Shown: positions 17,565 to 34,882 of the stretch, piece after piece | Position numbering within the stretch: position 1 is the first letter of the stretch | How the letters are laid out: every line of letters begins with the position of its first letter | Origin: Collibacillus ludicampi | GTDB lineage: Bacteria; Bacillota; Bacilli; Tumebacillales; BOQE01 | Reading direction: 5' to 3' | Length of the DNA: 64,000 bases | Assembly (NCBI RefSeq): GCF_023705585.1 | Contig: NZ_BOQE01000001.1 | Location: 1,887,001 to 1,951,000, forward strand | Translations under genes and position numbers: made by a program | Notes under the pieces: generated by a model | Told to the model about the DNA's origin: nothing | The model's database searches: none | Seen by the model: the letters and a program-made list of their open reading frames with translations, nothing else

Positions 17565-17613
17565 TTACCGCAGATCCTTTTTTGCCATACTAAGGCAGAA
17601 GGAGGAGATGGCC

Positions 17614-18375
17614 GTGAAGCAGTTTCTGAACGACAGAAATGACGCCAATCTAAAGATCATGACATTTAATATCCGCCATGGAAAAGGAACCGACAGACAG
17701 TTCGACTTGCAGCGAATCGCAGACGTTTTGGCCGAGAGTGAAGCGGATCTGATCGGTCTCAATGAAGTGGATCGCCATTTTTCAAAAAGAAGTAGTTTTA
17801 TGGATCAAATCAACTTTCTTGCGCAATACTTGGGTATGCATGAGGCATTCGGCGCTGCGCTAACATTAAGGACGAAGCGGCCAACCGGATTGAGAGAGTA
17901 TGGAAACGCTTTTTTGTCCCGTTATCCGATCATTTCCCACGAGAATCATGCCATGAATTTTTATCCCGGAATGATCGAAGGACGCGCTTTGCTCGAAGTG
18001 AACCTGAACATTAACGATCAATCCGTGAAAGTCTATGTCACTCATCTCAGCCTGAATCCCATCTTTCATAAGAAGCAAACGGATTTTATTTTAAAAAAAG
18101 TGATGGCCGATCATCAACCTGTGATCCTCATGGGAGATTGGAACATGAGGACGGGTTCGCAAGCCTGGAGGAAAATTACCCGTCATCTGACCGATGTTTG
18201 TGAACATACAAACCAAGGGCCTTTCTATACGTTCCCATCCACACGCCCCAAAATTCGCTTGGATTATATCTTTGTAAGCCGCCAATTTCAGTTGGTTTCG
18301 GTCCATATGATGAACATTCTCCCCCAAGCGTCCGACCATTTACCATTACTAGCGACGGTAAGGTTCAGCGGTTAA
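17614..18375 (+). CDS. Endonuclease/exonuclease/phosphatase family hydrolase
   Basis: A 253-aa EEP-superfamily (DNase I-like) metallo-hydrolase. All core motifs are present: M-T-F-N-I-R-H-G, L-N-E-V-D, the G-R-A-L-L-E-V strand, V-T-H-L-S, the G-D-W-N-M-R motif, L-D-Y-I-F-V-S and the final A-S-D-H-L-P-L. These supply the Glu, Asp, Asn and His for Mg2+-dependent phosphodiester cleavage; substrates in this family range from DNA to sphingomyelin and inositol phosphates. GTG at 17614 is preferred because AAGGAGG is 8 bases away, against 2 bases for ATG 17608. There is no signal peptide. A phosphodiesterase-like gene follows 76 bases later. Confidence 0.85.
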   Translation: MKQFLNDRNDANLKIMTFNIRHGKGTDRQFDLQRIADVLAESEADLIGLNEVDRHFSKRSSFMDQINFLAQYLGMHEAFGAALTLRTKRPTGLREYGNAFLSRYPIISHENHAMNFYPGMIEGRALLEVNLNINDQSVKVYVTHLSLNPIFHKKQTDFILKKVMADHQPVILMGDWNMRTGSQAWRKITRHLTDVCEHTNQGPFYTFPSTRPKIRLDYIFVSRQFQLVSVHMMNILPQASDHLPLLATVRFSG

Positions 18376-18451
18376 TGTTTCATAACATCTTATTTTTTGA
18401 GGAATACTGGGAATGTTACACATACTTACATGTTATGAAGGGCAGGATGGC

Positions 18452-19927: not shown

Positions 19928-20030
19928 CCGGCAGATAACCAATCATTCGTTCATCTAGACGTATATATGTTGCTGACGTCTGCTCTGGTGCATTCATTAA
20001 GATTATCATGCACAAAAGGGGCGATCACTG

Positions 20031-20207
20031 ATGTACGAGGTAAACGGCGAGTGGGCTCGATGGGGCGTGGTATTTCTCATTATTTTTGTGGTTTTCTTTT
20101 TATTTGTTCCGGGGTATCTGCGAGCGGAGAACCCTCAACCTCCGATTCCCTCAGTGCCAGGGATCCCATCCGTTCCGTCTATCCCAGGCCTCCCGGTCCT
20201 TCCGTAA
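20031..20207 (+). CDS. 58-aa peptide: membrane helix plus proline-rich tail
   Basis: A 58-residue paralogue of the 33-aa peptide at 17355. It shares the R-W-x-V-V-F-L-I-I-F-V-x-F-F-L-x-V-P-G-Y core, then adds a tail rich in Pro, Ser, Ile and Gly (P-x-P-P-I-P-S-V-P-G-I-P-S-V-P-S-I-P-G-L-P) with a V-P-G-I-P-S / I-P-G-L-P repeat pattern. One membrane helix with an exposed Pro-rich extension suits a spore-envelope or sporulation peptide, but this is an inference. AAAAGGGG lies about 9 bases before the ATG, and a terminator hairpin follows at 20221. The remaining bases of the 19928-20342 gap show no other feature. Confidence 0.6.
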   Translation: MYEVNGEWARWGVVFLIIFVVFFLFVPGYLRAENPQPPIPSVPGIPSVPSIPGLPVLP

Positions 20208-20220
20208 TCGACAATTGACA

Positions 20221-20248
20221 GGGGCGTGTGCGAACACGCCCCATTCTT
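20221..20248 (+). terminator. Intrinsic terminator
   Basis: GGGGCGTGT and ACACGCCCC arms around a 4-base loop, with a modest T-rich run (ATTCTTAT) after it. It ends the transcript of the 58-aa peptide gene. Confidence 0.75.
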
Positions 20249-20342
20249 ATGAATCCCTGAAAACGAATGAGAAAATTCCCATGGTATAAAAATCATCCCC
20301 ACTTTTCAAAATAACTCTTACTTACGGCAAAGGGGGGATTCG

Positions 20343-23300
20343 ATGATCGATTTTCTCGGCAGATTATTACGAAGCCGAACCCGACCGATACCGGGACGTT
20401 TACGCCTGCAAGTGAACGGCTTGAGACGGAACGGAGAACGGAAGCATATGATCGAGAAACGCTTACTCCACTTGGAGGGAGTGACTTACGTCGAGGCTAA
20501 CCCGGTCACCGGCCGTGTGCTGATTCTTTTTGACGAGACTATTTTGCAACCTCATCGGATCTATGAGGTTCTTGATGAACTGGCTCGTGAGCAAATGAAT
20601 CACTCGCACCTCTTGGCCGAATTAGCGGCCGCGCAGAAAGAAGCGGCTGCTGCGGAAGCCTTACAATCATCGGGTTCTCAACCATGGCACACCCAAACCG
20701 TCGATTCAACGTTCGTATCGTTACGCACCGCCGTCTCCGGTCTCATGGAGAGAGAAGTTCATCAACGATTAGCCCGCCATGGGCCGAACCAGCTTTTTGA
20801 GGCTCCGCGTCCGGGCTGGGTGCGTTTGTTCTTACGGCAATTTGCCAATTTCATGACGATCACCTTACTTATATCGGCGTTGGTAGCCTTGCTGCTTGGC
20901 CGTGTCCTCGATGCAGGAAGTATTTTGGGCGTTCTTGCGATCAATGCCGCACTTGGAACATTTCAGGAAAGAAAAGCGGAGAATGAGGCACGGGCATTAC
21001 GCGAATTGACAGCTCCTACTGCACGGGTGATGCGTGACGGAAAGGAAACGATCCTGCCCGCCCATGTTTTGGTTCCCGGCGATATCATCATTCTCGACCC
21101 CGGGGATCAAGTGCCCGCCGACGCGAGATTGATTGATTGCTGGAATCTGGAAGTCGATGAATCATCGTTAACCGGTGAGTCTGTTCCTGTCGCGAAAAAA
21201 CCGGGTATTTGCGACTCCGAAACGCCACTGGCAGACAGAACCAATATGCTTTATATGGGCAGCCATGTCACGCGCGGAAGGGCGCGGGCAGTGGTTGTAG
21301 CAACAGGGATCGATACGGAAATCGGTCGGCTTTTCTCCATGGTTCAACAGCATAGGGAAGAGACGACGCCATTGCAACGAAAATTAAACATTCTCGGACA
21401 ATACCTCGTCTTGAGTTCGATCCTCGTAAGCGTGTTTGTCATCCTGGTCGGTTTGGCCCGTGGCATGCCGATCGTTGACATGTTGATGACGGGTGTGAGC
21501 CTCGCGACCTCCGCGATACCCGAAGGATTACCGATCATGATCACGATCGGGCTAGCTGTCGGAATGCGTAGGATGATCGGAAAACATGCGCTGGTGAGAA
21601 AACTATCCGCACTTGAGACTCTCGGTCGGGCGACTGTCATTTGTTCAGATAAAACCGGCACGCTCACAAAAAATGAAATGACCGTACGTGCGATCGCGAG
21701 CGCGGCAAGAAGCTGGGAAGTGACAGGAAACGGATACACCCCAATCGGAACGTTTTCGGAAAACGGAAGTCCGATCGATGTTCAGCAAACTTCGGACTTG
21801 AAATGGATCTTAACGGCGTCCACTTTGTGCAGCGACGCGAAATTGCTACATAACGGAAAACATGAATATTCGGAAGGAATCATTCAGGGACATGTGATAC
21901 CGGATCACAGTTGGACGATCAGCGGAGATCCGACGGAAGGGGCGCTCTTGGTAGCGGCGGCAAAAGGAGGCATCTGGCCGGAAGAAAGCCGCAAACCGTG
22001 GAAACGGATGAAAGAGGTTCCGTTTGAATCAGAACGACGCCGAATGTCGGTCATCTGTGGTGATCAGGAGAACAATCGCCATCTCATCGTCAAGGGCGCG
22101 ATTGAAGAGGTCTTGAACATGTGCGACAGAGTGTTGGTTGATGGAGACATCCAACCGCTGGTACAGTCGCAGAGAGAGATGATACAAGCGCGCAATGAAG
22201 ATTTTACGTCCCGTTCGTTACGCGTGTTGGCGGTCGCCTACCGTCCGTTGGATCCGGAAGAACGATCCAATGATGAAATCGATGAAAACCGTCTGATCTT
22301 TGCCGGTCTGATCGGCATGATTGACCCGCCACGCGAACAAGTGAAAGAAAGTATTCTCAGTTGTAAAAATGCCGGTATCAAAGTCGTCATGATCACAGGC
22401 GATCATCCAAAGACGGCAACAGCGATCGCTCAGGAATTGGGAATCCTTGAAGGAGGCGGGCGAGTTCTCACAGGAGTGGAATTGGATCAGCTCAGTGATG
22501 ATCAACTCGCTGCGATGGTCGCCAATGTTGACGTATATGCACGCGTGTCTCCTCATCACAAGCTGCGAATCGTCTCCGCATTCAAAAAACGGGGCGAAAT
22601 CGTCGTGATGACCGGAGATGGGGTCAATGACGCACCGGCCGTCAAACGTGCGGATGTAGGGATTGCGATGGGGAAATCGGGAGTGGAAGTAACCAAACAA
22701 GCGTCTTCCATGATTATTACGGATGATAACTTTGTTACCATTTGCAAAGGTGTGCAAGAGGGGCGCACTGTACTGGGCAATATTCGCAAGGCAATCGGTT
22801 ATTTATTGAGCGGGAACCTCGGAGAAGTGCTCTACGCTACATTGGCTGTATTGGCAGGAATGCCTTTGCCTTTGGTGCCGATCCAGATTCTATTGATCAA
22901 CCTGTTTACGGATGCTCTTCCATCGATCGCTCTGGCAATGGGAAATCCGAGGCAGGAGCCGCAAAATCTCAGCATGGAGATCACACGCGACGTGACCGAT
23001 CGCAGCTTGATCACGCAGATCATTTCCCGAGGCATCATCATCGGTCTGACAACCATGGGTGTATTTTGCGGAACAATGACATGGACAGGAAACCTCATGT
23101 TGGCGCGTACTTTGGCGTTCATGTCACTCTGCGCCAGTGAATTGATTCAGGCGCTTGATTGGCGCAGGTTGGACGATACCTCACGCGCGCGCGGCGACCT
23201 GTTGCGCGATCGATTCATGACAGCCACTTTGGCCGTATCTTGGACGGGTCTTCTTTCAATCGTGTATCTACCCCCTCTGCAAACATTGTTCCAAACCGTA

Positions 23301-23462
23301 CCGCTGTCCTTGTTACACTGGGTGGTGATTCTGGGAATCGGATATTCCGTTTCAGTGTTGAACAGACCGATATCACAACTCGTCGATACGCTCGTCCGGA
23401 AGTTTCGGAGTTCGTCTGCAAACAGAAAAACGTTCCCCCCGTTACCTATACTGACCGGTTAA
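20343..23462 (+). CDS. P2-type cation-transporting ATPase with N-terminal HMA2-like domain
   Basis: A 1039-aa pump. Residues about 15-85 form an HMA2-like domain (P-G-R-L-R-L ... G-V-T-Y-V-E-A-N-P-V-T-G-R) without the CxxC of true metal-binding HMA domains. The P2-type core follows: L-T-G-E-S, A-I-P-E-G-L-P in TM4, the phosphorylated Asp at about 436 in C-S-D-K-T-G-T-L-T, T-G-D-H-P-K-T-A and T-G-D-G-V-N-D-A-P. TM5 (G-N-L-G-E-V) and TM6 (I-N-L-F-T-D-A-L-P) keep the Asn, Glu and Asp that bind Ca2+ in SERCA, so Ca2+ or Mn2+ export is plausible. ATG 20343 has GGGGGG upstream. It is the first of four ATPase-like genes in a row. Confidence 0.9.
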   Translation: MIDFLGRLLRSRTRPIPGRLRLQVNGLRRNGERKHMIEKRLLHLEGVTYVEANPVTGRVLILFDETILQPHRIYEVLDELAREQMNHSHLLAELAAAQKEAAAAEALQSSGSQPWHTQTVDSTFVSLRTAVSGLMEREVHQRLARHGPNQLFEAPRPGWVRLFLRQFANFMTITLLISALVALLLGRVLDAGSILGVLAINAALGTFQERKAENEARALRELTAPTARVMRDGKETILPAHVLVPGDIIILDPGDQVPADARLIDCWNLEVDESSLTGESVPVAKKPGICDSETPLADRTNMLYMGSHVTRGRARAVVVATGIDTEIGRLFSMVQQHREETTPLQRKLNILGQYLVLSSILVSVFVILVGLARGMPIVDMLMTGVSLATSAIPEGLPIMITIGLAVGMRRMIGKHALVRKLSALETLGRATVICSDKTGTLTKNEMTVRAIASAARSWEVTGNGYTPIGTFSENGSPIDVQQTSDLKWILTASTLCSDAKLLHNGKHEYSEGIIQGHVIPDHSWTISGDPTEGALLVAAAKGGIWPEESRKPWKRMKEVPFESERRRMSVICGDQENNRHLIVKGAIEEVLNMCDRVLVDGDIQPLVQSQREMIQARNEDFTSRSLRVLAVAYRPLDPEERSNDEIDENRLIFAGLIGMIDPPREQVKESILSCKNAGIKVVMITGDHPKTATAIAQELGILEGGGRVLTGVELDQLSDDQLAAMVANVDVYARVSPHHKLRIVSAFKKRGEIVVMTGDGVNDAPAVKRADVGIAMGKSGVEVTKQASSMIITDDNFVTICKGVQEGRTVLGNIRKAIGYLLSGNLGEVLYATLAVLAGMPLPLVPIQILLINLFTDALPSIALAMGNPRQEPQNLSMEITRDVTDRSLITQIISRGIIIGLTTMGVFCGTMTWTGNLMLARTLAFMSLCASELIQALDWRRLDDTSRARGDLLRDRFMTATLAVSWTGLLSIVYLPPLQTLFQTVPLSLLHWVVILGIGYSVSVLNRPISQLVDTLVRKFRSSSANRKTFPPLPILTG

Positions 23463-23529
23463 GCTTCCTGCAGAGAACTGAATGATTCCTCATCTTATGG
23501 TCAAACTACAAGCAGGGGAGGGATGTGAA

Positions 23530-23721
23530 ATGGAACCTTTTGAATGGGTCGTTGTCGGCATGTTGGCATACGCTATCTTTCCAAAAGTACGGAAGGCGGT
23601 GTCCACTACTTGGTCTTCCATCACGTCGACAGCCAATCAAACCGTGCAAGGAATTGGACGTACCACATCCAATGCGGTGAATCAGGCACAACACATGTTT
23701 GCTTCACCTGAACAACAGTAA
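23530..23721 (+). CDS. 63-aa small membrane protein next to P-type ATPase
   Basis: A 63-residue protein: an N-terminal hydrophobic helix (W-V-V-V-G-M-L-A-Y-A-I-F-P), a basic step (K-V-R-K-A-V) and then a long amphipathic, Ser/Thr/Gln/Asn-rich helix (residues about 25-60). The ATG at 23530 is chosen because GGGAGGG lies upstream; an earlier in-frame ATG at 23482 lacks a site. It sits 67 bases after the first P-type ATPase and is probably co-transcribed. Size, topology and position resemble the PacL partner proteins of mycobacterial P-ATPases, but no His-rich metal tail is present. I recognise no named family. Confidence 0.6.
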   Translation: MEPFEWVVVGMLAYAIFPKVRKAVSTTWSSITSTANQTVQGIGRTTSNAVNQAQHMFASPEQQ

Positions 23722-23813
23722 GACAATCAAGGCCGAAGAGTCTGCCGGGTGGTGGTACCGGGAGGCTCTTTGGCGTGGGTTATCGCCCGGTGCAGCAAGT
23801 GGAGACATAAGAC

Positions 23814-23963
23814 AGAACTAGTGCTTGGATGGGCGTATCGCTTTGCGCTTGGGTTCGATGAAGGCCGTTCCGCCCGGATTCTTAACAGTTGATGCGGAAC
23901 GACCTTCAACTCACCTCTTCGCTGCAAAGCGATAAGACCCACCCAAAAGCCACACTAATGCAT
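23814..23963. repeat. Nested palindromic repeat, copy C (outer module, inverted)
   Basis: Reverse orientation relative to copies A, B and F: it begins with the complement of the right end (AGTGCTTGGATGGGCGTATC) and ends with the complement of the left end (GATAAGACCCACCCAAAAGC). It has the outer arms (GAAGGCCGTTCCGC / GCGGAACGACCTTC) around a loop near 23875-23893, but lacks the inner module altogether. This shows that the two modules are separable. It fills most of the 23722-24049 gap. Confidence 0.85.
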
Positions 23964-24049
23964 GTGGCAGCTTTTAATCTCATTTCTCAAATGTAAGTAG
24001 CACAACTGTCAACCTACACATTTTCAAGCAGAAAAGAGGCTTAACGATC

Positions 24050-27000
24050 TTGGAAGTCAGAAATGTATCAGAAAAAAGGTTTTTGCGACGGTTACCTGGC
24101 CGTTGGCGCGTCTACATCCATGGGATACAAAAAAATACGCAAGCTGCCCGCTTCTTTGAACAGCTTTGTCTTGAAATCCCCGGTGTAACGACGGTGACGG
24201 CAGACAGCTTGACAGGGCGTTCCCTCATTCTGTTTGACGAAAATCGGTTGAACCCCAACCGATTGGAGCAGAAGCTGTTGGCTATCGAATCCATGTTGCA
24301 AAATCCGAACGAATGTGTTGCGGCGACGAGTGAGGATCCGGTAACAGAAGGAGCGCTCGCCGTCAAGGTGGATTGGCAAACTCTTCAACGGGATGAAATT
24401 CTGCATCGTTTGCAAAGTGACGGCCACGAGGGGCTGAGTGCCGCCGAGGTGAAAAAAAGGCAGTTTTTTTTCGGCATGAATCAAATGCCGGAAGGAGAGA
24501 CACAGCTTTGGTACAAGACTCTATTCCGCCAATTTTTTAATTTCACGACTCTTACCATGATCAGCATATCCGCTTTGCCGATCTTTTTAGGGCGGATTCG
24601 CGACACGGCGGGCGTTTTGTTTATTCTGGGAGTCAATGCGGTCATCGGCACGTATCAAGAGCAAAAAGCACAAAAGGATATTCGTGCTTTGAAACGATTG
24701 TCGGTAGACAAAGCGAGAGTCTTGCGCGCAGGCAAGGAAACGGAAGTCCTTGCGAACGAGCTGGTGCCCGGCGATATTTTGTTGCTGGAAGCGGGAGACC
24801 GCATTCCGGCCGATGCCATTTTGCTGGAGAGTTGGAACGCGGAAATCGACGAATCGGCTTTAACTGGCGAATCGGTTCCCGTCATCAAGACAGCGGCGGC
24901 AGTTTCCGCAGCCGATACTCCTCTCGCCGAGCGGAAGAACATGGTCTATATGGGGACGTTTATGACACGCGGCCGTGGGAAAGCGATCGTTGTCGCAACG
25001 GGTCAGGGAACGGAAATGGGGAAACTTGTCTCCGGCTTGCAACATGTGGCGAATCGACCTACCCCCTTACAACAAAGGCTCAGTGTCGTTGCACGGACAC
25101 TGGTCATTGCAGCGCTCGCAATCGCGGGGGCGGTCGTCTTGATGAGATTTGTTCAGGGATACACGTTGATCGATACGTTAATGACAGGCGTTTCGGTAGC
25201 CACAACTGCGATATCCGAAGGTTTGCCGATCATGATCACCGTATCTCTCGTAGCCGGAATGCGGCGGATGGTACGCCACAAAGCGGTGGTGAGACATCTT
25301 TCCGCTTTGGAAACACTGGCGAAAGTGGACGTGATTTGTTCGGATAAAACCGGCACGCTGACTAAGAACGAGATGACCGTTCGTACGATCATGAGCGGTG
25401 AACACTGTTGGACGGTGACGGGTGACGGATATCAGAAGGATGGGGGCATTTTTGAGAAAGGCGAGCCTGTCATTCTCCATCCCGAGCATAGCCTCGTGTG
25501 GCTCACGACGGCAGCGGTTTTGTGCAATGATGCTGAACTTGCACATAAACAGGGATCGACATGGGAGATTCAAGGAGATCCAACGGAAGCTGCTCTCTTG
25601 GTTGCAGCGGGCAAAGTGGGGATATCCGTAAATGACTGTCGGCGGAGATGGCAGCGTGTTATTGAAATTCCGTTTGACTCCGACCGCCGGCGCATGACAG
25701 TCGTCTGCAAAAACCAAAAGGGCGAGACATACGTTTTTACCAAAGGCGCGGTTGATGTCGTGCTTGCAAGATGCAACTCTGTTCAAACCGACGGTCATGC
25801 TTGCGAACTGAACCCCCGCATACGGACCAAGATCCTGGATCAGGAGCGTGAGGCAGCCGACCAGGCGATGCGTGTGTTGGCGGTGGCCTTTAAACGGTTA
25901 CAAGAAGATCAGCAATCTCTGTCGACAGATGAATTGGAGGCGGATCTTATCTTCGGCGGGATGTTTGCCATGATGGACCCGCCTCGTGAAGATGTACACG
26001 AATGTGTCACCGAATGTCAAAAAGCGGGGATCCAAGTGGTCATGATCACAGGTGATCATCCGCGCACGGCAGAAGCGATCGGAAGAGAATTGGGCATCGT
26101 ATGTGACGCTGGACAAGTCCTGACTGGAGCCGAACTGGCACGGATGTCCGATGAGGAACTGAGCGCTGCTACCCGTTCGGTACGCATCTACAGCCGTGTT
26201 TCACCCACTGACAAGCAGCGCATTGTTTCCATTTTGCAAAAACGCGGCTTGATCGTCGCCATGACGGGGGACGGGGTGAATGACGCGCCTGCCCTGAAAC
26301 AAGCGGATGTAGGCATCGCCCTGGGGTCAGGCACGGATGTGGCGAAAGAAGTTTCTTCGCTGGTCCTGACGAATGACCATTTTTCCGCAATCGTTAAAGC
26401 GATCCGCCAAGGCCGTTCCGTTTTGGGGAATATCAGAAGTACGATCGGCTATATATTCACCGGAAATTTCGCAGAAGTCCTCTACGCATCGCTGGTTGTG
26501 CTTTCGGGGCTTCCCTTGCCGTTAATGCCGGTGCAAATGATGTTTATGAATATGTTGACCGATTCGCTTCCGACTCTCATCTTGACGATGGGGCGGCCCT
26601 CATCGCGGAGAAACCCGCAAATGAATCGGCCTTTACAAAAAGTAAGGGACGTGTTCGACGCGAAACTGATCTCTCGCGTACTGGCGAGCGGGTGCTTGGT
26701 CGGCTTGGCCACAACAGCTCTGTATATGGGAGTGACTGCTTTGACGGGCCATGCAGCATTGGCGGGAACGGTAGCACTCGCGACTCTCTGTATCGGCAAA
26801 CTATCGCAAGTTTCCTACTGGCGCCAGGTGAGCGGAGATGCAGGAGAGTTACGCCGAGACACGTTGATGCTGGGGACTTTAGGGATTTCACTCACTGGCC
26901 TTATAGCAGCGATCTACTTGCCGCAAATGCAATTTTTATTTAACAGCGTGCCTTTGGGGCTCCAGCATTGGGCAGTGATTTTGGGTACCGTGTACGCGGC

Positions 27001-27109
27001 AAGACGGTTGGCTTATCCCTTATCGGATCTTCTGCTTCCGAAGATCCAGAAGTCGGATCTTTTCAAACCCGCAAATTACCAGGAGAGCGCACAAACGATG
27101 TTCGGCTAA
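24050..27109 (+). CDS. P2-type cation-transporting ATPase with HMA2-like domain, Ser in place of TM4 Pro
   Basis: A 1019-aa paralogue of the ATPase at 20343. It has the N-terminal HMA2-like domain (L-P-G-R-W-R-V-Y-I-H-G, G-V-T-T-V-T-A-D-S-L-T-G-R), L-T-G-E-S, the phosphorylated Asp at about 432 in C-S-D-K-T-G-T-L-T, T-G-D-H-P-R-T-A and T-G-D-G-V-N-D-A-P, so it should be catalytic. TM5 G-N-F-A-E-V and TM6 M-N-M-L-T-D-S-L-P keep Ca-type ligands. Unusually the TM4 motif reads I-S-E-G-L-P (Ser389), replacing the near-universal Pro, which may alter ion choice or stoichiometry. It starts with TTG, with AAGAGG 10 bases upstream. The next gene begins 63 bases later. Confidence 0.9.
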   Translation: MEVRNVSEKRFLRRLPGRWRVYIHGIQKNTQAARFFEQLCLEIPGVTTVTADSLTGRSLILFDENRLNPNRLEQKLLAIESMLQNPNECVAATSEDPVTEGALAVKVDWQTLQRDEILHRLQSDGHEGLSAAEVKKRQFFFGMNQMPEGETQLWYKTLFRQFFNFTTLTMISISALPIFLGRIRDTAGVLFILGVNAVIGTYQEQKAQKDIRALKRLSVDKARVLRAGKETEVLANELVPGDILLLEAGDRIPADAILLESWNAEIDESALTGESVPVIKTAAAVSAADTPLAERKNMVYMGTFMTRGRGKAIVVATGQGTEMGKLVSGLQHVANRPTPLQQRLSVVARTLVIAALAIAGAVVLMRFVQGYTLIDTLMTGVSVATTAISEGLPIMITVSLVAGMRRMVRHKAVVRHLSALETLAKVDVICSDKTGTLTKNEMTVRTIMSGEHCWTVTGDGYQKDGGIFEKGEPVILHPEHSLVWLTTAAVLCNDAELAHKQGSTWEIQGDPTEAALLVAAGKVGISVNDCRRRWQRVIEIPFDSDRRRMTVVCKNQKGETYVFTKGAVDVVLARCNSVQTDGHACELNPRIRTKILDQEREAADQAMRVLAVAFKRLQEDQQSLSTDELEADLIFGGMFAMMDPPREDVHECVTECQKAGIQVVMITGDHPRTAEAIGRELGIVCDAGQVLTGAELARMSDEELSAATRSVRIYSRVSPTDKQRIVSILQKRGLIVAMTGDGVNDAPALKQADVGIALGSGTDVAKEVSSLVLTNDHFSAIVKAIRQGRSVLGNIRSTIGYIFTGNFAEVLYASLVVLSGLPLPLMPVQMMFMNMLTDSLPTLILTMGRPSSRRNPQMNRPLQKVRDVFDAKLISRVLASGCLVGLATTALYMGVTALTGHAALAGTVALATLCIGKLSQVSYWRQVSGDAGELRRDTLMLGTLGISLTGLIAAIYLPQMQFLFNSVPLGLQHWAVILGTVYAARRLAYPLSDLLLPKIQKSDLFKPANYQESAQTMFG

Positions 27110-27172
27110 ATGACAGAATGATGCGGAAGCATAGAAAGAAGAAAAATGAACCGATCATCGAGGTGAGTCAAC

Positions 27173-29941
27173 ATGGTACACGCGTTCGGCGGTGTGGGGG
27201 CATTGTTGCAACGTCTCGCCAATGCCCCTCGAATTTTTCTGCAAAGTTTGCTCGAACCTGATGAGCAAAATCAGGTGGAACAGACGATTCGGGGGCAACT
27301 CAATGCCGTTGAATTATCGGACGGATGGGAAAACGGCCTGACGCATGAACAAGCTCGGAAAAGGCTGGAACAACACGGCCTCAATCATTATCGTCCGTTA
27401 CCCAACAAATGGAAAGTGTTTGGCGAACAATTTAAAAGTGTAGCTGCGATCAGCCTGTTGGCATTTGCAGGTTTAGCGTGGGGCCTCGGTAAATACTTTG
27501 ACACGACACTCATCTTACTCGTGTTTGCCGCTCAAGCCATTTACACGACACGGGTCAAATGCCAAGCGGAACAAGATTATCAACGATTTTTGCAAGAGCA
27601 AAAAACGGTGAGTGTCATACGCGGCGGTCAGATCTCTCAGATTGCCCCGACAGACGTGGTTCCAGGAGATGTGTTATTTCTGCGGCAAGGGGACGTGGTC
27701 CCCGCCGACGCTTTCATCACATGTGCGAATCACTTGCAAGTGCGCGAGATGGATGCCGATTCTACTTATCGCGTGATGTTGAAATGTGCGGTCAGCCGCA
27801 AGGACGGGGAATCCTGTTTGCGCATAAACAGGGGAACAGAAGCGAACCGCCTGTATGCGGGTTCAGTGATCGTTTCCGGCTCGGCCCAAGCAGTGGTCAC
27901 ACATACAGGTGATTCCACCCGCCACGCGGACATATTGCGTCAACCGAAACGGAGAAAATTATATACGGAACAACGTTATGACACGCTTTCAAAGAAACTG
28001 ACAAAAGCGGGATGGATCGCCATTATCCTCGTCGGAGGTTTGGTATTTCTCGTCGGTTGGAGTCCTTCAGCCGCAGTCGCGACAGCAAGCGCTGTCGCCA
28101 CATCTGTGATTCCGGGCGGATTCTCGCTGCCCATATGTCTGGCGTTTTGGACAGCGACGAAACGCATGCGTCAGGAAGCACGGGAACTGCCGAGCCTTCA
28201 TCATGTGGATCGCTTGGAAGATACGAAAGTGGTCGTCCTCACCGATCACGGGCTTACGGATGAAATGGAAGCGAGCCAACTGTTTGGTTCGCAATCCCGC
28301 TGGTTCGTTTCAAAAGAGGTGAGTGATCATATCCATTCTCATAAACGGATATTTCACAAAGACGGGATACAGGCGCAACTGGAAAGTTCCTCTGAAGCTG
28401 TCTTATTGATCCAAGCCGCCAAACCATTCGCTAGGATCAACGGTGATTTGGGGCCGTACGACCGTGCAGTCAACCGTTTATACGGAAATCTGCCGGTCAC
28501 GCAACGCACGGATCCATGTGCATGGAAATGGATCGACCACGCCCACTTACAGTCACACGGTCTGTTTGAAATGAGGGCGTTTCAAGATCAAAAAGGAAGA
28601 ATCGTGGAAGTGATTCGCGGTCCCGTACAACTGCTTTTTGAGAAATGCAAACGTGCGATCTCACCGAAACAGATGGAATGTTCCTTTTTTGATGTACCAA
28701 CAATGGAAAAATCGGATGCGTTGCAAAAGTCACTCCAGGATTGGTTGGAAACAGCCCGCCGCCATCATGAACAAACTGTCGGTTTTGCGTACCGTATACG
28801 CGAAGCGGAGGGGATGTCGGTACACTCAGCGGGGGGAACGACCGATGTACAAGATCTCATATGGATCGGGGCGATTTCCTTTCAGTGTATCTATCAGCGT
28901 TCTTCCCATCTGTTGCGACGTGTCGCGAATCTCGGTCTGCCCGTTGTGTTGACCGTGCAGGAAAGTGTTATAGAAGATCCGGGATTTCGGCAAGCGATCA
29001 CATTCGATGACGCGAAAATCCGCATTCTTTCAACAAAGGATTTTGTTGCAACGCTTGAAGAGAAGCCATTAGAAAAAGAAGAAGTTTGGATCGTCGTTGC
29101 CGATGAACGGGAACGGCTCGATGTTTTGGAAACATTGAGGGAACGTTATTCTGCGATCTGTTTTATCGGTTGTCACGATCAGGAGCGAGCTCTCTTCGGT
29201 GCGGCTTGGGCGGCCATCGAGCAAGGTATCAAAAGGGGGCTGCAGGATGTGATCGAAGCCCTTGAGGAAACCGGGCATGCACGCGCCCGATTGGGCCACG
29301 CCAATGGTTTTATTCTCAGCGGCAATATCGGTGAAGTAGTCTTTTCGACACTCGCTGGGATCACAGGTGCGCATCACGCACTCTCGCCCGTGATCCTCAA
29401 CTTATTGACAAACTCCCTGGCTTCTGTAGGTATCGCCATCGGAAAAAGAGAAGTAGATCAGCGACAAGGACATCCAAACGGGGATCTTCAATCGTTGCAC
29501 AAGCCGATCGTTTCTCACGGATTCATATCCGGTGCCACGGCGATGCTGGCCTATGCGGGCGGGCTTCTCATCAGTGAAGATCCATTTTTCGCAAGCACAT
29601 TTGCGTTTATTACGCTCATTCTTTCACAATTGTGGCAGGCTGTTCATTGGCGGCGCCAGTCCCGATTGGCGAAACTCAGCGATCTTTGGGAAGATCGGGT
29701 GTTGACAGTATCGTTGCTCGTCGCTTTGCTAGCGCTCGTTCTCAGTGTGCAAGTGCCGTTCTTTGCCGGCCAGTTGCAGACGACGCCTCTCGGCATTCAA
29801 GATTGGTTGGCGGCCGGAGCGATCGCGGGTGCCGTAGGACCTGTCGCTTCCAACAGCGAGGAACCCATCTGGGGAATCGTCAAACGAGTGACCGGACGCT
29901 TTTGGGGGAACAACCCCCAAAAGCCGATGGCTGCTGCGTAA
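27173..29941 (+). CDS. Catalytically dead P-type ATPase homologue
   Basis: A 922-aa protein with the full P2-ATPase layout: cation-ATPase N-domain (G-L-T-H-E-Q-A-R-K-R-L-E-Q-H-G-L-N), actuator-like region (V-V-P-G-D-V-L-F-L-R-Q-G-D-V-V-P-A-D-A), paired membrane segments and C-terminal TMs. Every catalytic motif is broken. TGES is absent (M-D-A-D-S-T-Y-R). TM4 PEGLP reads I-P-G-G-F. DKTGT reads T-D-H-G-L-T near residue 358, with a two-residue deletion. GDGVND is missing. TM6 N-L-F-T-D reads N-L-L-T-N, while TM5 G-N-I-G-E-V survives. The frame is intact, so this looks like a maintained pseudoenzyme rather than decay. It lacks the HMA2 domain. GAGGTGA precedes the ATG. Confidence 0.8.
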   Translation: MVHAFGGVGALLQRLANAPRIFLQSLLEPDEQNQVEQTIRGQLNAVELSDGWENGLTHEQARKRLEQHGLNHYRPLPNKWKVFGEQFKSVAAISLLAFAGLAWGLGKYFDTTLILLVFAAQAIYTTRVKCQAEQDYQRFLQEQKTVSVIRGGQISQIAPTDVVPGDVLFLRQGDVVPADAFITCANHLQVREMDADSTYRVMLKCAVSRKDGESCLRINRGTEANRLYAGSVIVSGSAQAVVTHTGDSTRHADILRQPKRRKLYTEQRYDTLSKKLTKAGWIAIILVGGLVFLVGWSPSAAVATASAVATSVIPGGFSLPICLAFWTATKRMRQEARELPSLHHVDRLEDTKVVVLTDHGLTDEMEASQLFGSQSRWFVSKEVSDHIHSHKRIFHKDGIQAQLESSSEAVLLIQAAKPFARINGDLGPYDRAVNRLYGNLPVTQRTDPCAWKWIDHAHLQSHGLFEMRAFQDQKGRIVEVIRGPVQLLFEKCKRAISPKQMECSFFDVPTMEKSDALQKSLQDWLETARRHHEQTVGFAYRIREAEGMSVHSAGGTTDVQDLIWIGAISFQCIYQRSSHLLRRVANLGLPVVLTVQESVIEDPGFRQAITFDDAKIRILSTKDFVATLEEKPLEKEEVWIVVADERERLDVLETLRERYSAICFIGCHDQERALFGAAWAAIEQGIKRGLQDVIEALEETGHARARLGHANGFILSGNIGEVVFSTLAGITGAHHALSPVILNLLTNSLASVGIAIGKREVDQRQGHPNGDLQSLHKPIVSHGFISGATAMLAYAGGLLISEDPFFASTFAFITLILSQLWQAVHWRRQSRLAKLSDLWEDRVLTVSLLVALLALVLSVQVPFFAGQLQTTPLGIQDWLAAGAIAGAVGPVASNSEEPIWGIVKRVTGRFWGNNPQKPMAAA

Positions 29942-30065
29942 GCTGTGTGTTCGGTTCGTGAATGTTGTCCTTCTGTTTGAAATAAAATCTTGTGTTTTCG
30001 TAATAAATTTGCTGACGGCGTTTCACACTATGTCTATTAGTGAAGGAAATTTAAGGAGAATCGTT

Positions 30066-31994
30066 ATGGCCATTGGTTACGAGAATGAACGGTTTATGCG
30101 ACTACTTCCCGGAAGAGTCCGCATTCAGATTTATGGATTAAAAAAGAATCTCCTGATGAAGCGACAGATCCTTCACCAGTTCAGTCAGCTTGAAGGGGTT
30201 TTACAAATCGCCCCTTCTGTCGATTCGGGAAGATGCCTATTCATCTTCGATCCGAAAAAAACGTCGTTTGACCGCATATACAAACAGATCGTCCTTCTTG
30301 AGGAGCAGACGTTCCACATCGAGAGATCCGTACGTACAGCTGTAAAAGAAGTGGCAGCGACGAGTGCCGCTGTCGCACAAAACGTTTCCGCTGTTCCGCC
30401 GATGACCGGCAGAATTCCCGGCAAACGCGTTCCTCTCGAGTCGGCCTTGTCGCTTGGGGGATTAGGAGTCTTAAGTGTGAAACAGATCATGACAGGGGGA
30501 CCTTCCGTTCTTTCTCGTCACCCAACGGCATTTTATTTGTCAGGTTTTGTTTCGATACTGACCGGCTATCCTTTTTTCACCCGCTATACCTACTCAAAGA
30601 AAAGAAAAAAAATGTTCGATTGGGTTTTTGCGTGTACGTTCATTCTTGCTTTGATCAGGGAAAACTTAGTTGTACTCGCCGGGCTGAGCATTCTGCAATA
30701 TCTCATCTGGAAACGCGGTCAGGCGATCGGACAAGAGAAGAGACAGTCATCTGTTTCATTGCACAGTCCCGTGATTCGGCAGTATAGTGAACGCGCAGAA
30801 AAATGGGGATTTTTCCTGGCATTGGCATCCTGGGCTTATGTGCGTGATCCTTTGACGGCCCTCGCCGTACTCCTCGCCGCCAATCCGCGCCCTGCAACAT
30901 TGCCCGCTGAATACGCATGGTCACATGCGGAAGTGATCTCGCAAGAAAGAAAGTACCGGATACCGGGCAACGGATCCCTGCAACAACTGGCGCAAACGAA
31001 AACGGTTTTGTTCGAAGATACATCACAGATTTTTTTGCGGGAAGAAACAGCGGGCATTCAATGTATCAGCAACATGAATGATTGTGAAAAAATATGGTGT
31101 ACTCTCGCTTCTATTATGAAAAACACGAATCATACCTGGAAGGAGGAAGTTGTAAAAAGGGCGGAACAAACCGGCCGTACCTTGCGAACCTCGTTTCAAG
31201 TCCATGAGGAGGAACGGGGTGTGAAAGGAATGATTAGCGGCATGGGATTTTTTCTCGGTGATAAGAATTTCATGCTTAAACATGAAGTGGATTGCAGCGA
31301 ATACGAATGGATAGCCCATAAGATGGAGAAAACAGGTTATGTCGTTCAGTTTGTCGGAAAAGAGGAATATGACAAGAGGATTTGTATAGGTGTGCTGACC
31401 AAGCCGCCGCGGGGGGTTACGCCCGAATTTGTCTCCATCGTTGGTCACCTTGTACAGAATCAATGGAAAATCGCTGTTTTGCATGACAGTCTTCAGCTCG
31501 ACAGGGAGCTTTATCGGAGACTCGGAATCGATCCATCCTGGCTGTCGTTCCATGATGAACAGGTGTATCAGCGAATCTGTACGTTAAGGAAACAAGGAGA
31601 AGACGTTCTCTTCATCCCAGAAAATGAGAAGGAGAGCAGAATTGAGTACGTCGCATCCGGGGTTCCGTCCGTGTGCATGAGCCAATTGAAAGAGATTCAA
31701 GTGAGCGCCGCATATGCTCGGCGGATCCAGCAAATGATCAATCAGCATGTAGCGGTAACAAAAATATGGAATATCATAGGAACCCTTCTGATCCCTTTCG
31801 GGTTTACCGCCATGGTGATCAACTCGATCGCGGACGCGCTCTTACTGGTTTTCCTGGCAAGGGCGAAGCGGATCAGTGAGTCTCCTCTTTCCTTGGAACG
31901 TAAAGGAAAGGAATTAAACATAGTTTTCCAAGAAAGACGATCCTGCAGCAAGTTGCGCATACCGATGTGTAAAACGTCCTTCGGACATACATAA
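30066..31994 (+). CDS. HMA2-domain protein with degenerate P1B-type ATPase body
   Basis: A 642-aa protein. Residues about 8-75 are the same HMA2-like domain found in the two pumps (L-L-P-G-R-V-R-I-Q-I-Y-G). Two or three hydrophobic segments follow (about 140-220), and the remainder resembles the C-terminal half of P1B heavy-metal ATPases: A-A-N-P-R-P where C-P-C/A-N-P-C would be, G-N-G-S-L-Q-Q-L-A-Q-T-K-T-V-L-F-E-D-T where DKTGT should stand, G-M-I-S-G-M-G-F-F-L-G-D-K-N-F-M-L for the nucleotide domain, and a closing pair of TMs. The phosphorylation site and GDGxND are gone, so it is a second pseudo-ATPase. ATG 30066 has AAGGAGA 6 bases upstream. It follows the dead paralogue by 124 bases. Confidence 0.7.
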   Translation: MAIGYENERFMRLLPGRVRIQIYGLKKNLLMKRQILHQFSQLEGVLQIAPSVDSGRCLFIFDPKKTSFDRIYKQIVLLEEQTFHIERSVRTAVKEVAATSAAVAQNVSAVPPMTGRIPGKRVPLESALSLGGLGVLSVKQIMTGGPSVLSRHPTAFYLSGFVSILTGYPFFTRYTYSKKRKKMFDWVFACTFILALIRENLVVLAGLSILQYLIWKRGQAIGQEKRQSSVSLHSPVIRQYSERAEKWGFFLALASWAYVRDPLTALAVLLAANPRPATLPAEYAWSHAEVISQERKYRIPGNGSLQQLAQTKTVLFEDTSQIFLREETAGIQCISNMNDCEKIWCTLASIMKNTNHTWKEEVVKRAEQTGRTLRTSFQVHEEERGVKGMISGMGFFLGDKNFMLKHEVDCSEYEWIAHKMEKTGYVVQFVGKEEYDKRICIGVLTKPPRGVTPEFVSIVGHLVQNQWKIAVLHDSLQLDRELYRRLGIDPSWLSFHDEQVYQRICTLRKQGEDVLFIPENEKESRIEYVASGVPSVCMSQLKEIQVSAAYARRIQQMINQHVAVTKIWNIIGTLLIPFGFTAMVINSIADALLLVFLARAKRISESPLSLERKGKELNIVFQERRSCSKLRIPMCKTSFGHT

Positions 31995-32035
31995 TGCTTG
32001 GCGTGAGACGGTGACTATAGAAGTCGTGTCGTTAT
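31992..32035. repeat. Decayed remnant of the palindromic repeat, copy D
   Basis: ATGCTTGGCGTGAGACGGTG and the following bases align with the left half-module of copy A (TGCTTTGCGTGAGACAGCG, then the GGAGGTCG-type arm) with several changes and no pairing partner. It lies between the HMA2 pseudo-ATPase and the DUF5132 gene. Confidence 0.55.
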
Positions 32036-32076
32036 CTTTGAAACGTTACAGATTTTAATAATAGGAGGTACATTTC

Positions 32077-32322
32077 ATGTTACAAAATAATGTGGAAAAA
32101 ATTGTAGCCGGTCTTGCCCTGGCTGTAGCGGCTCCCGTCTTGCTTCCTGTTGCCAAAAACGTCATTCAGCCCTTGGCGGTTCTCGGGATGAAAGGTGCGG
32201 GCAACCTAATCGATCGCGCGAAATATGCCGTTCAGATCGCCAAGGAGGAAGTGGAGGACATTATAGCGGAAGCCCAGTTTGAGCGTATGAAAAGGCAGAT
32301 TGATAGAGAAATTTTGGGATAG
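32077..32322 (+). CDS. DUF5132-type small membrane protein
   Basis: An 81-aa protein. It has a hydrophobic N-terminal segment with repeated Ala/Val/Pro (V-A-G-L-A-L-A-V-A-A-P-V-L-L-P-V-A), then V-I-Q-P-L-A and a long charged amphipathic helix ending in A-K-E-E-V-E-D-I-I-A-E-A-Q-F-E. The pattern is that of DUF5132, which I recall being encoded beside HMA2 proteins and P-type ATPases. It also resembles the mycobacterial PacL (DUF1490) proteins that scaffold P-ATPases in the membrane, with the same TM-then-E/A-rich helix. A good AGGAGG precedes the ATG. It and the 76-aa gene 27 bases later close the ATPase island. Confidence 0.7.
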   Translation: MLQNNVEKIVAGLALAVAAPVLLPVAKNVIQPLAVLGMKGAGNLIDRAKYAVQIAKEEVEDIIAEAQFERMKRQIDREILG

Positions 32323-32349
32323 ACTTCTAGAAGAAAGGGGAAGGCTCAC

Positions 32350-32580
32350 ATGATCGAAGAAAAAGGTATTGACGAACACCTGCGGGAGGCACTTGCACAT
32401 CTGGAAACCGCTTTAAACAAAAGCGTGGCAACCGTCTTGAAAAACGAAGCGGCCAAGAGGGAGATCGGACAAAAATGGGAGGGTTTTCTCGGAGAGTTTT
32501 TCGGATATATACGGGAGAAAGGGAAGGAAAATAAGGTGAATTTGTTGGGGTGGATCTCTTTTCCTCGCATTTGGAAATAA
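32350..32580 (+). CDS. 76-aa charged helical protein, unknown
   Basis: A 76-residue protein with no recognised family. It is predicted largely helical and strongly charged (H-L-R-E-A-L-A-H-L-E-T-A-L-N-K near the start, then E-A-A-K-R-E-I-G-Q-K-W), with a more hydrophobic, aromatic C-terminus (L-L-G-W-I-S-F-P-R-I-W-K) that could touch a membrane. AAAGGGGAAGG lies about 6 bases before the ATG. It is 27 bases after the DUF5132 gene and ends at a shared hairpin, so the pair is probably translated together. Confidence 0.55.
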   Translation: MIEEKGIDEHLREALAHLETALNKSVATVLKNEAAKREIGQKWEGFLGEFFGYIREKGKENKVNLLGWISFPRIWK

Positions 32581-32582
32581 GC

Positions 32583-32604
32583 GGAGAGGGGCCTATCCCT
32601 CTCC
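32583..32604. terminator. Hairpin between convergent genes
   Basis: GGAGAGGG and CCCTCTCC arms around a 6-base loop. It overlaps the last codons of the ABC-F gene on the minus strand and follows the 76-aa gene on the plus strand. The T-run is poor, so it may act mainly as a barrier. Confidence 0.5.
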
Positions 32605-34530
32605 AAGCAGTTTTTCCCATTCATCATACAAGGTTCCCACCCGTTCTTTCACAGACTCATACTCGTTGTTTATTTCCCTCGCGCGTTCAGGATCACTGAA
32701 AATGTCAGGATTACAAAGATCCCTCTCTAACGCTTGAATGTGTTCCTCAAGCCGATGAATTTCTTCTTCAATCGCACGGATCCTCTCGGCCCGTTTCTTT
32801 GCTTCCCTTTTGGCGATTCGTTCTTCTTGTCGTTTTCGTTCACGGTCATCGGCCGATTCGCCGTTTTCTTTGTTTGCGGCGGAATCTTGAGGCTGCAACG
32901 ATGCCGCTTCCTCCAGTTCTTGTTTCTTCTCGATATAATCGTCATAATTCCCCAAATAGGAGGTCAATCCATCGGGACCGAGTTCTACGATACGTGTGGC
33001 GATGCGATTGAGAAAATAGCGGTCATGCGAGATGAACAGCAGTGTTCCCGGGTATTCGTCGAGTGCGACTTCAAGTACTTCTTTTGAAAGAAGATCGAGA
33101 TGGTTCGTCGGTTCATCCAAGAGCATGAAGTTCGCCTCAAGGAGCATGAGTTTAGCCAAAGCGACGCGTGCACGTTCCCCTCCTGAAAGGACAGAGATCG
33201 GTTTTTGCACTTCATCCCCGGAGAACAGGAAATTGCCGAGAACGGTCCGGATGCGCGTATGATCCAATTGAGGAAAAGTATCCCACACTTCATTCAAAAT
33301 CGTTTTGCTTACATTCAAGTCCTCTTGTTCTTGTGAGTAGTATCCCACTGTGACATGGGTTCCCAATTTGATCGTACCTTCCAAAGGGGGAACCTGACCG
33401 AGGATCGCCTTTAAAAGGGTGGATTTGCCCGTTCCGTTCGGGCCGATCAATGCGACGCGTTCCCCGCGTTGAATTTTCAAGTGGATGGATTTAGCTAAAA
33501 CTTTATCCCCATAACCGATCGCCACCCCGTCTATCACCAGTACATCGTTGCCCGATGGGCGGTTGATGGTGAAGGAAAAATGCGCCTTGTCCTGGTTGGA
33601 GACGGGACGTTCGATCCGTTCGATCTTTTCCAACATTTTGCGGCGGCTTTGTGCCCGCTTGCTTGTAGTCGCACGGGCGATATTTCGCCGGATGAAATCC
33701 TCGATTCTTGCGATTTCCGCCTGTTGTTGTTCGTATCGCTTGATGCGTGCTTCCAATTCTGCCGCTTTTTGTTCTAAATAGGACGAGTAGTTTCCTGTGT
33801 ACCTCCGCGTAGAACCCGCTTCGAGTTCGTAAGTTACCTCCGTCAACGTATCGAGGAAATAGCGGTCATGTGACACCAGTAAGAGCGCTCCAGGGTAAGT
33901 TTTCAAATACTCTTCCAACCATGTGAGCGTACGCATGTCCAAATAGTTTGTGGGCTCGTCGAGAATGAGAAGACTGGGTTGGAGGAGCAGCAATTTCCCC
34001 AAAGCGAGCCGTGTTTTTTGCCCTCCCGACAAAGACTGCACAGTCCGGTTGTGCATCTCTTCGGGAAAATCAAGGCCATGCAGAATGGAACGCACTTTGG
34101 CGTCTACCGCATATCCGTTACGGTCAGTGAACGTTTGCGTGAGCCGTGCATATTCTTCCGTCATCGCCGTAAACTTGGTTTCATTCCCATAGATTTCGGG
34201 GCGGCTCATCTGTTCTTCCAGTTCGCGCATACGTTTTTCAATGGCAAAGAGATCTTCATACACCGAACGCATTTCTTCATAAACGGTTCGCGAGGACGGG
34301 ACATCCGCATGCTGTGCGAGATAACCGACCGTCGCTTCTTTCGCAATATGAATATCCCCTTCGTCAGGCGGGATTTCTCCCGCGATGATTTTAAGAAGAG
34401 TCGATTTTCCTGCGCCGTTGGGCCCAACCAAAGCGACACGTTCCCGTTCCTGCACGGTGAGAGTCGCGTCGCGCAAGATCGTTTCCGTCCCATAAGATTT
34501 GTGTATATGTGATGCAGTTACGAGTATCAT
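32593..34530 (-). CDS. ABC-F family ATPase (YdiF type)
   Basis: A 645-aa soluble protein with two ABC domains and no membrane part, the ABC-F layout of ribosome-associated translation factors. Domain 1 has G-P-N-G-A-G-K-S-T and L-S-G-G-Q-K-T-R; domain 2 has G-P-N-G-T-G-K-S-T and L-S-G-G-E-R-A-R. Both Walker B segments end L-D-E-P-T-N. Between them lies the P-site linker helix region (R-R-N-I-A-R-A-T-T-S-K-R-A-Q-S-R-R-K), and the C-terminus is a charged coiled coil (about 555-640). In Bacillus the equivalent gene ydiF directly follows tsaD (gcp); here 21 kb separates them. AGGAG precedes the ATG. A role in resolving stalled ribosomes is inferred from family. Confidence 0.92.
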   Translation of the reverse strand: MILVTASHIHKSYGTETILRDATLTVQERERVALVGPNGAGKSTLLKIIAGEIPPDEGDIHIAKEATVGYLAQHADVPSSRTVYEEMRSVYEDLFAIEKRMRELEEQMSRPEIYGNETKFTAMTEEYARLTQTFTDRNGYAVDAKVRSILHGLDFPEEMHNRTVQSLSGGQKTRLALGKLLLLQPSLLILDEPTNYLDMRTLTWLEEYLKTYPGALLLVSHDRYFLDTLTEVTYELEAGSTRRYTGNYSSYLEQKAAELEARIKRYEQQQAEIARIEDFIRRNIARATTSKRAQSRRKMLEKIERIERPVSNQDKAHFSFTINRPSGNDVLVIDGVAIGYGDKVLAKSIHLKIQRGERVALIGPNGTGKSTLLKAILGQVPPLEGTIKLGTHVTVGYYSQEQEDLNVSKTILNEVWDTFPQLDHTRIRTVLGNFLFSGDEVQKPISVLSGGERARVALAKLMLLEANFMLLDEPTNHLDLLSKEVLEVALDEYPGTLLFISHDRYFLNRIATRIVELGPDGLTSYLGNYDDYIEKKQELEEAASLQPQDSAANKENGESADDRERKRQEERIAKREAKKRAERIRAIEEEIHRLEEHIQALERDLCNPDIFSDPERAREINNEYESVKERVGTLYDEWEKLLGEG

Positions 34531-34604
34531 TGTCTGCAGCTCCTTCTAGTCTTCGCTTGCACATTCAGTGTATCGTATAGAAGAATAGGAGGACAACCTT
34601 AGAA

Positions 34605-34838
34605 AATCTGTGGCGGAGCGTGTATATGCTTTGCGCTCATGCTCCGTGGAGGTCGCCTCGCATGGAATCATAAGCAAATGTTGCGAGACGACCTTCAAAG
34701 TCGCAATTACGCGCAAAGCATATACCCCTTTCCAGCCAAAAAGGAAACGAGACGACCTCCAAAGTCGCTGTTTCACGCCAAGCATATGCCCCTTTAAAGT
34801 TCCAAAGGAAGCAAGACGAACTTCAAAGTCGTAGCAGG
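34605..34838. repeat. Nested palindromic repeat, copy E (inner module, inverted, with extra half-modules)
   Basis: Inverted inner hairpin: TATATGCTTTGCGCTCATGC and GGAGGTCGCCTCGCATG, loop at about 34663-34680, then TTGCGAGACGACC and GCGCAAAGCATATA. Two further right half-modules follow (GAGACGACCTCCAAAGTCGC to GCATATGCC, and AAGACGAACTTCAAAGTCG). This mirrors copy A, which has the same extra half-module on its left side. It occupies the gap between the divergent ABC-F and cyclo-ligase genes and so must contain or flank both promoters. Confidence 0.85.
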
Positions 34839-34882
34839 CTCAGTTGAAAATGGGGATGGGAGGGCCAATTGGAGGTGCAATA

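Follow-up and report, generated by a model that had tools for sequence, protein, structure and literature searches.

Catalytically dead P-type ATPases as candidate partners of live cation pumps in a gene island of Collibacillus ludicampi

We analyzed a 64,000-nucleotide stretch of the genome of Collibacillus ludicampi (contig NZ_BOQE01000001.1, positions 1,887,001 to 1,951,000; hereafter the window), in which seven open reading frames at 20343-32580, all on the + strand and in one direction, form an island encoding four P-type ATPase homologues and three small proteins. Two of the homologues, pumps A and B, are live P2-type ATPases; the other two, here called dead P2 and pseudo-P1B, lack the catalytic motifs. 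The island is a split, expanded variant of an uncharacterized giant ATPase system, and the sequences and their distribution suggest that it probably encodes selected pseudo-ATPase subunits within a multi-ATPase membrane assembly for a hard divalent cation, docked by small proteins. Because some relatives keep the set and a related giant carries one dead half in fused form, the dead proteins appear to be functional components that have been retained over a long time.

Live and dead ATPases in the island

Pump A (20343..23462, + strand; 1039 amino acids (aa)) and pump B (24050..27109, +; 1019 aa) each combine an HMA2 head, above the Pfam cut-off, with a full P2-type ATPase of which TGES, DKTGT, TGD and GDGVND are all kept, and they are 46% identical to each other over 1014 aligned positions. 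Their nearest NCBIfam models are the PMR1/SERCA Ca2+-ATPases, and they share the catalytic motifs of the P2A Ca2+-ATPases (SERCA, PMR1, LMCA1), but differ from them by the HMA2 heads and by scores below the equivalog cut-offs (629.6 and 565.5 vs 798.3 for TIGR01522; 592.9 and 543.6 vs 703.4 for TIGR01116). We took the SERCA ligand set to be Glu in membrane segment 4 (M4), Asn and Glu in M5, Asn, Thr and Asp in M6 and Glu in M8. Pump A keeps SERCA-like ligand residues in M4, M5, M6 and M8 in 3/3 orthologues. Pump B further departs from the P2A ATPases in all four orthologues, with SEGLP instead of PEGLP in M4 and Lys for Glu in M8, the other ligands being present, and its stoichiometry or its ion is therefore predicted to differ from that of pump A. 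In a tree of P2 ATPases, from which ord_L044 was left out for want of a usable frame, a branch supported at 100/100 separates pump B from all other rows, another (100/100) does so for dead P2, and the support for the pump A grouping is 34/0.

In dead P2 (27173..29941, +; 922 aa), Pfam found the N-terminal, E1-E2 and C-terminal ATPase domains but not the hydrolase domain, and TGES, DKTGT, TGD and GDGVND are replaced in 4/4 orthologues. The M4 Glu is changed to Gly, the M6 Asp to Asn or Gly, and the M8 Glu is lost; M5 Asn/Glu (GNxxE) and M6 Asn/Thr (NxLT) are retained. Among solved structures, Listeria lmo0841 is the one that the dead-P2 profile matches best. Pseudo-P1B, first called as 29958..31994 (+; 678 aa), fits its orthologues better when started at an ATG at 30066 behind a good ribosome-binding site (30066..31994; 642 aa). 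It consists of an HMA2 head and a P1B membrane domain, its only Pfam match being a sub-threshold one to HMA_2 (24.7 vs 30), and it is not assignable to the P1B heavy-metal ATPases (TIGR01525, 26.7 vs 346.25). NPRP stands in the place of CPC, EDTS or a similar sequence in that of DKTGT, and GDGxND is unrecognizable. Since M2 and M4 are spaced by 53 residues (50-53 in four orthologues), compared with 163 in five live HMA2-headed P1B ATPases, the actuator domain is missing. These HMA2-headed, FezB-like enzymes are the nearest live relatives of pseudo-P1B among those sampled, and they keep the CPC, TGES, DKTGT and actuator of which pseudo-P1B has none. P-type ATPases work by forming and clearing an aspartyl phosphate; judging from the residues replaced, neither dead P2 nor pseudo-P1B should be able to do so. 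The first-pass annotation of the window had read the run as two intact HMA2-headed P2 pumps, a motif-less P2 homologue, a motif-less HMA2-P1B-like homologue and three small proteins in one direction, and each of these assignments was borne out.

Separate genes for pseudo-P1B and dead P2 were found in the same four of 14 genomes of the order (G000, G001, G003 and G006, from three families), for which all candidates were scored, at 42-58% identity. The live and dead ATPase genes are clustered in each of these genomes, in three different orders, and a DUF5132-like gene stands at all four islands; this is the co-occurrence that the first-pass annotation had proposed to look for. In the other ten genomes neither dead gene is separate, and the only frame of the size of an HMA2-P2 pump is a fused giant in G008; matches in G005 sit on short, cut frames and so are not assignable as such a pump. 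Those frames aside, pumps kept without the dead genes were not seen in the order, nor were dead genes confined to one strain and evolving neutrally, the two patterns that had been named as speaking against the proposal. Beyond the order, the class and phylum profile searches scored the best 2-3 candidates per genome, so that their counts are lower bounds and their absences soft. A dead-P2 search of 396 class genomes at 1e-28 gave nine matches, four of them the island genomes and the other five DKTGT-bearing ATPases of 24-30% identity, three of which are giants; full-length dead P2 was thus found among them only in the four island genomes. A genome-contig scan with the dead-P2 alignment gave one locus (95 residues at 28%), the corresponding scan with pseudo-P1B found no relative, and the three plasmid records that match pseudo-P1B are all heavy-metal ATPases.

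The ratio of nonsynonymous to synonymous substitution (dN/dS; NG86, finite values only) was 0.12-0.17 for dead P2 (4/6 pairs) and 0.15-0.34 for pseudo-P1B (3/6), compared with 0.11-0.19 for the pumps (2/3 pairs for pump A, 2/6 for pump B), the synonymous term being saturated or nearly so in the finite pairs (dS 1.6-3.6). The ratio of second- to third-position differences spanned 0.37-0.60 for the dead genes, compared with 0.27-0.40 for the pumps. The frames are intact in all four genomes, and neither the disrupted frame nor the neutral substitution of a pseudogene was found. The dead genes, which had been suspected to be selected, are under purifying selection on frames without catalysis, weaker than that on the pumps.

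Over the four genomes, dead P2 is best kept in M5-M6 and in M7-M10, both at a mean identity of 0.58, and in M3-M4, at 0.56. Since M7-M10 is the lowest part of pump B (0.51), its place among the best-kept parts of dead P2 fits an interface. The best-kept parts of the split pseudo-P1B are M3-M4 (0.56) and M1-M2 (0.50), its remnant of the nucleotide-binding and phosphorylation (N/P) domains averaging 0.37 (0.25 in giants). We aligned 34 pseudo-P1B sequences of the class, namely four split proteins, 25 of 26 giants and five of eight short orphans, after removing L099, a repeat of G008. NP stands at the CPC position in 34/34, and two M6 sites four residues apart hold Asp in 33/34 and Asn in 30/34 (both in 4/4 split proteins and 5/5 orphans; Asn in 21/25 and Asp in 24/25 giants). 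The same sites hold Ala and Asn in the live HMA2-P1B rows that cover them, which represent three distinct proteins, L118 repeating the live G103 row. In spacing and by SERCA numbering, this pair resembles the M6 Asn/Asp pair of SERCA.

Fused giants and the probable origin of the split form

The system is wider than the first-pass annotation saw. The window genome also carries, elsewhere, a 1542-aa giant ATPase (L014:6532-11160), of which residues 37-616 match pseudo-P1B (25% over 625 aligned positions, E 3e-40) and the C-terminal 900 residues match pump A at 43%. With a pseudo-P1B profile, such giants (frames of 1400-1661 aa) were found in at least 26 of 398 class genomes, the window genome included; neighborhoods were read for 18 of the class giants, and all 18 proved to have the P2 half. 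The same search gave a separate full-length gene in four genomes, a short orphan in eight (all of family f181) and a fragmented gene in one, so that at least 37 class genomes contain the module, two of them in both giant and split form. Among 398 phylum genomes the profile gave 11 matches: besides the window genome, three further giants, five live P1B ATPases with an HMA2 head and two P1B ATPases of the ordinary kind. Pseudo-P1B, which had been taken for a dead paralogue, is thus not a fresh one but a module common to a widespread fused ATPase. The giant matches 708 plasmid records, none over 80% of its length, and the 25 listed cover the P2 half only. Beside the giant of the window genome and divergent from it, L014:11693-14549 contains two thymidylate-kinase-like genes (named by eye) and a Ppx/GppA gene (by Pfam).

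In a tree of 41 rows, the split proteins form one group (support 93/91) among the giant N-halves and join the giants of G006 and G463 at a moderate 88/92. The tree is midpoint-rooted, carries a long-branch warning (an orphan row, G121) and includes L099 as a repeat of G008; neither it nor the M6 alignment includes L083 (G603) or the partial loci from four genomes that also have full giants. Because the split proteins are nested among the giants, fission of a fused ancestor is favored, and pseudo-P1B most likely derives from the N-terminal half of a giant, a direction that the nesting suggests. Loss would then have been complementary, the pumps being giants minus the P1B part and pseudo-P1B a giant minus the P2 part.

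Outside the class, the P1B half of one giant (G160) keeps DKTGT and GDGIND and has TGS for TGE and SPS for CPC. This giant (L121:4979-10014) contains two DKTGT motifs, and its pseudo-P1B profile match continues upstream in a neighboring frame. Two companion HMA2-P1B proteins (L120:1258-3420, 720 aa; L121:11539-13680, 713 aa) keep DKTGT and GDGxND and have TGQ for TGE, which from the motif should trap or slow the phosphoenzyme. Together with the G160 giant they look like a stepwise loss of catalysis with the protein retained. The orphans represent another form: at all five loci read of the eight (370-494 aa; L109-L112 and L135), pseudo-P1B is accompanied by two DUF5132-like genes and no P2 pump, and adjoins rsmH-like genes (5/5) and mraZ-like genes (4/5), both named by eye.

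In layout, the giants resemble CtpH and CtpI of mycobacteria (FUPA24, TC 3.A.3.24). CtpH and CtpI are about 1500-1600 aa long, and the giant of the window genome shares their layout of a single large chain with the P2 core in the C-terminal half. The island differs from FUPA24 in that its genes are split, the pseudo half is separate and a dead P2 is added. CtpH and CtpI are described as unusually large, with ten transmembrane segments modeled in the C-terminal half, PEGM or PEGL, and DKTGT (PMC3573892). CtpH is linked to Ca2+ pumping in a report from 2022 (PMC9180918), and a 2023 review places CtpI and CtpH as isolated in the tree and not characterized (PMC10654040). Since the pseudo-P1B module is common to these CtpH/CtpI-like giants, the system does not entirely lack known relatives. 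The set had been suggested to be possibly undescribed, and we recognized no description of this gene set in the open-access literature (for some topics among the best 12-15 matches only).

Small proteins and genomic setting

The three small proteins had been counted but their families were followed further here. S1 (23482..23721, +) lies directly after pump A, and its homologues begin at MEPF, at about 23527. S2 (32077..32322, +) is a DUF5132-like small membrane protein with the charged helix EEVEDIIAEAQFERMKRQIDRE; its DUF5132 (PF17195) score is below the gathering score (21.4 vs 25), as is that of the L113 homologue, and we found no open-access literature on DUF5132. S3 (32350..32580, +) has no obvious membrane span by eye and ends in a conserved NLLGWISFPR. 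Five small families were searched for with iterated profiles in the open frames of 35 loci and six control stretches, the models being refined on the same frames as were counted, controls included. Because the S2 and S5 models cross-match, they were treated as one DUF5132-like group, which is present at 19/21 giant loci (18 of the class, three outside), 4/4 islands, 5/5 orphan loci and 4/4 live HMA2-P1B loci. S3 occurs at 16/21 giant loci, 4/4 islands, 2/4 live HMA2-P1B loci and 0/5 orphan loci, and the glycine-zipper-like S4 at 14/21 giant loci and 1/4 islands. S1 is found in 3/4 islands, following pump A directly in the window, G001 and G003. None of S1-S5 was found in the six control stretches, two of which contain other ATPases. 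Each of the other three islands has another DUF5132-like gene in the opposite orientation, which the window island does not have. The small proteins are a conserved part of the system. Two giant loci, in G000 and G006, have no DUF5132-like gene and no S3 either, and the islands of these two genomes contain both; since the islands supply what these giant loci lack, the small proteins appear to be shared parts.

The closest working precedent for an assembly of this kind is the PacL system of M. tuberculosis. PacL proteins are small, with an N-terminal transmembrane helix and an Ala/Glu-rich cytoplasmic part, and they gather several P-ATPases into clusters by binding their N-terminal metal-binding domains (PMC13043812). 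The likeness has limits: PacL is DUF1490, of which no match was found in S1, S2 and S3 of the window or in five scanned small homologues, and its partners CtpC, CtpG and CtpV are P1B pumps, for which no dead partners are described there (PMC13043812). Nor does the island match a ferrosome (fez) cluster, as its seven proteins include no live P1B ATPase that could be the FezB transporter and no DUF4405 match, FezC being the DUF4405-like cytochrome of that cluster (PMC10979944).

The ligand residues of pump A, the link of CtpH to Ca2+ and, weakly, MntP-like neighbors point to a hard, divalent cation. MntP/YtaF-like genes lie near five giant or island loci (L057, L113, L123, L124 and L131), two of them confirmed by Pfam. 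A polyphosphate link was considered but not adopted: in 7/26 class giant genomes (G006, G451, G479, G485, G504, G553, in two frames, and G573), four of them of one family, a polyphosphate kinase gene (Ppk1) is found no more than about 4 kb from the giant, but three of the four island genomes (G000, G001 and G003) gave no PP_kinase match. Such genes are exemplified by L058:878-3001, L114:2654-4777, L131:10135-12243 and L129:567-2576 (two frames), and some are the second Ppk1 copy of the genome. Ppk1 was present in 18/28 giant or split genomes vs 19/44 others (p = 0.095, orphan genomes, at 0/8, excluded).

The seven-gene run is likely one transcript. The intergenic gaps are, in order, 19, 328, 63, 16, 82 and 27 base pairs (bp), the 16 becoming 124 bp with the later start of pseudo-P1B. 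The 328-bp gap between S1 and pump B contains a copy (23816..23981, +) of a dispersed repeat unit of about 170 bp, scored at 40 places, this one included, among 162 genome candidates, the others at 84-92% identity; the repeat is probably not part of the island function. A scan that gave 22 terminator-like hairpins vs 14.3 expected placed one upstream of the run (20221..20242, +) and one adjoining the end of S3 (32582..32605, -). The latter belongs to the minus strand, where a convergent ABC-F gene has its 3' end, and so cannot alone be taken as the end of the run.

A proposed multi-ATPase assembly and its alternatives

In the assembly that we favor, pumps A and B would carry out the ATP-driven transport of a hard divalent cation, most likely Ca2+-like and possibly Mn2+ or Mg2+. 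Pseudo-P1B and dead P2, having kept their membrane domains and lost catalysis, would serve as scaffold or allosteric partners, pseudo-P1B retaining a diverged HMA2 head. The DUF5132-like proteins and S3 would be shared accessory parts that probably dock or cluster the HMA2 heads, like PacL with mycobacterial P1B pumps. The kept membrane domains, the lost catalysis, the linkage in cis or in a cluster and the small proteins together fit such an assembly. Several observations weigh against it. The sample consists of four islands only; in that of G001 an unrelated gene, MFS-like by eye and on the other strand, stands between pump B and pseudo-P1B, and that of G006 has, instead of pump A, an otherwise intact giant-like P2 ATPase in which PQGLP replaces the M4 Glu by Gln (L057:14941-18060). 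Evolution is faster in pseudo-P1B than in the pumps, and the HMA2 head of pseudo-P1B is little conserved, with a mean identity of 0.32 over the four proteins. The contrast in M7-M10 is one with pump B, the value for the same part of pump A being 0.67 in a range of 0.61-0.91. Because the orphans are without a P2 pump at their loci, pseudo-P1B need not act only as a pump subunit. Predicted structures were uninformative, both for pseudo-P1B alone (mean predicted local distance difference test score (pLDDT) 40.9) and for dead P2 aligned with both window pumps (39.2). No riboswitch was matched by Rfam in window positions 16000-36000, and at eight related loci the sole Rfam match was a selenocysteine tRNA.

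That the dead members are pseudogenes or products of recent decay kept by chance, as the absence of catalytic motifs might suggest, is hardly credible given the intact frames in four genomes of three families, the low dN/dS where finite and the second- to third-position ratios reported above. A more serious contender, though we consider it doubtful, is that they sense or buffer cations in the membrane as transceptors, and so regulate the pumps or some other process without forming a stable oligomer. The M6 Asn/Asp of pseudo-P1B, spaced four apart as in SERCA and contrasting with Ala/Asn in live HMA2-P1B ATPases, and the M5 Asn/Glu and M6 Asn/Thr of dead P2 would suit ion binding of this kind, and so would the pump-less f181 loci; but Pfam found no regulatory domain in the island proteins, and the fusion to a live pump that at least 26 of 398 class genomes contain points to a link that is physical rather than only regulatory. 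The same f181 loci, where pseudo-P1B stands with DUF5132-like proteins, and the progressive loss of soluble domains with membrane segments kept could instead indicate an unrelated membrane role apart from the pumps, such as shaping or organizing membrane domains with the DUF5132-like proteins. We regard this as unlikely, because within the order the separate dead genes were seen only clustered with pumps, and in the rest of the class most pseudo-P1B modules are part of a fusion with a pump. Quite improbable, finally, is a ferrosome-like arrangement in which the pumps and small membrane proteins load an intracellular store of a cation or of cation and polyphosphate: it draws on the HMA2-headed live P1B ATPases, which have the same kinds of small proteins, and on the Ppk1 genes near giants, but Ppk1 is not clearly enriched and is missing from three island genomes, and no DUF4405 match was found in the island.

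Returning to the multi-ATPase assembly, a bolder form of it, which we put forward only tentatively, is a class of pumps made of live and dead P-type ATPases in which the pseudo-ATPases would be obligatory subunits, pseudo-P1B, its soft-metal CPC site turned into NPRP and an Asn/Asp pair at SERCA spacing acquired in M6, serving the live P2 pump as a hard-cation relay or gate, which would act in cis where the two are fused, as in the giants, and in trans here. P-type ATPases are known to act singly or together with small subunits that are not ATPases themselves, and we know of no live/dead heteromer for any of them. In the split island the modules lie in separate genes that could be deleted singly, unlike those of the fused giants. 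If CtpH and CtpI share the pseudo half, the unexplained N-terminal half of these giants would gain a function, and if the assembly proposed here is real, the use of a dead but selected P-type ATPase as a partner would introduce a principle new to this superfamily.

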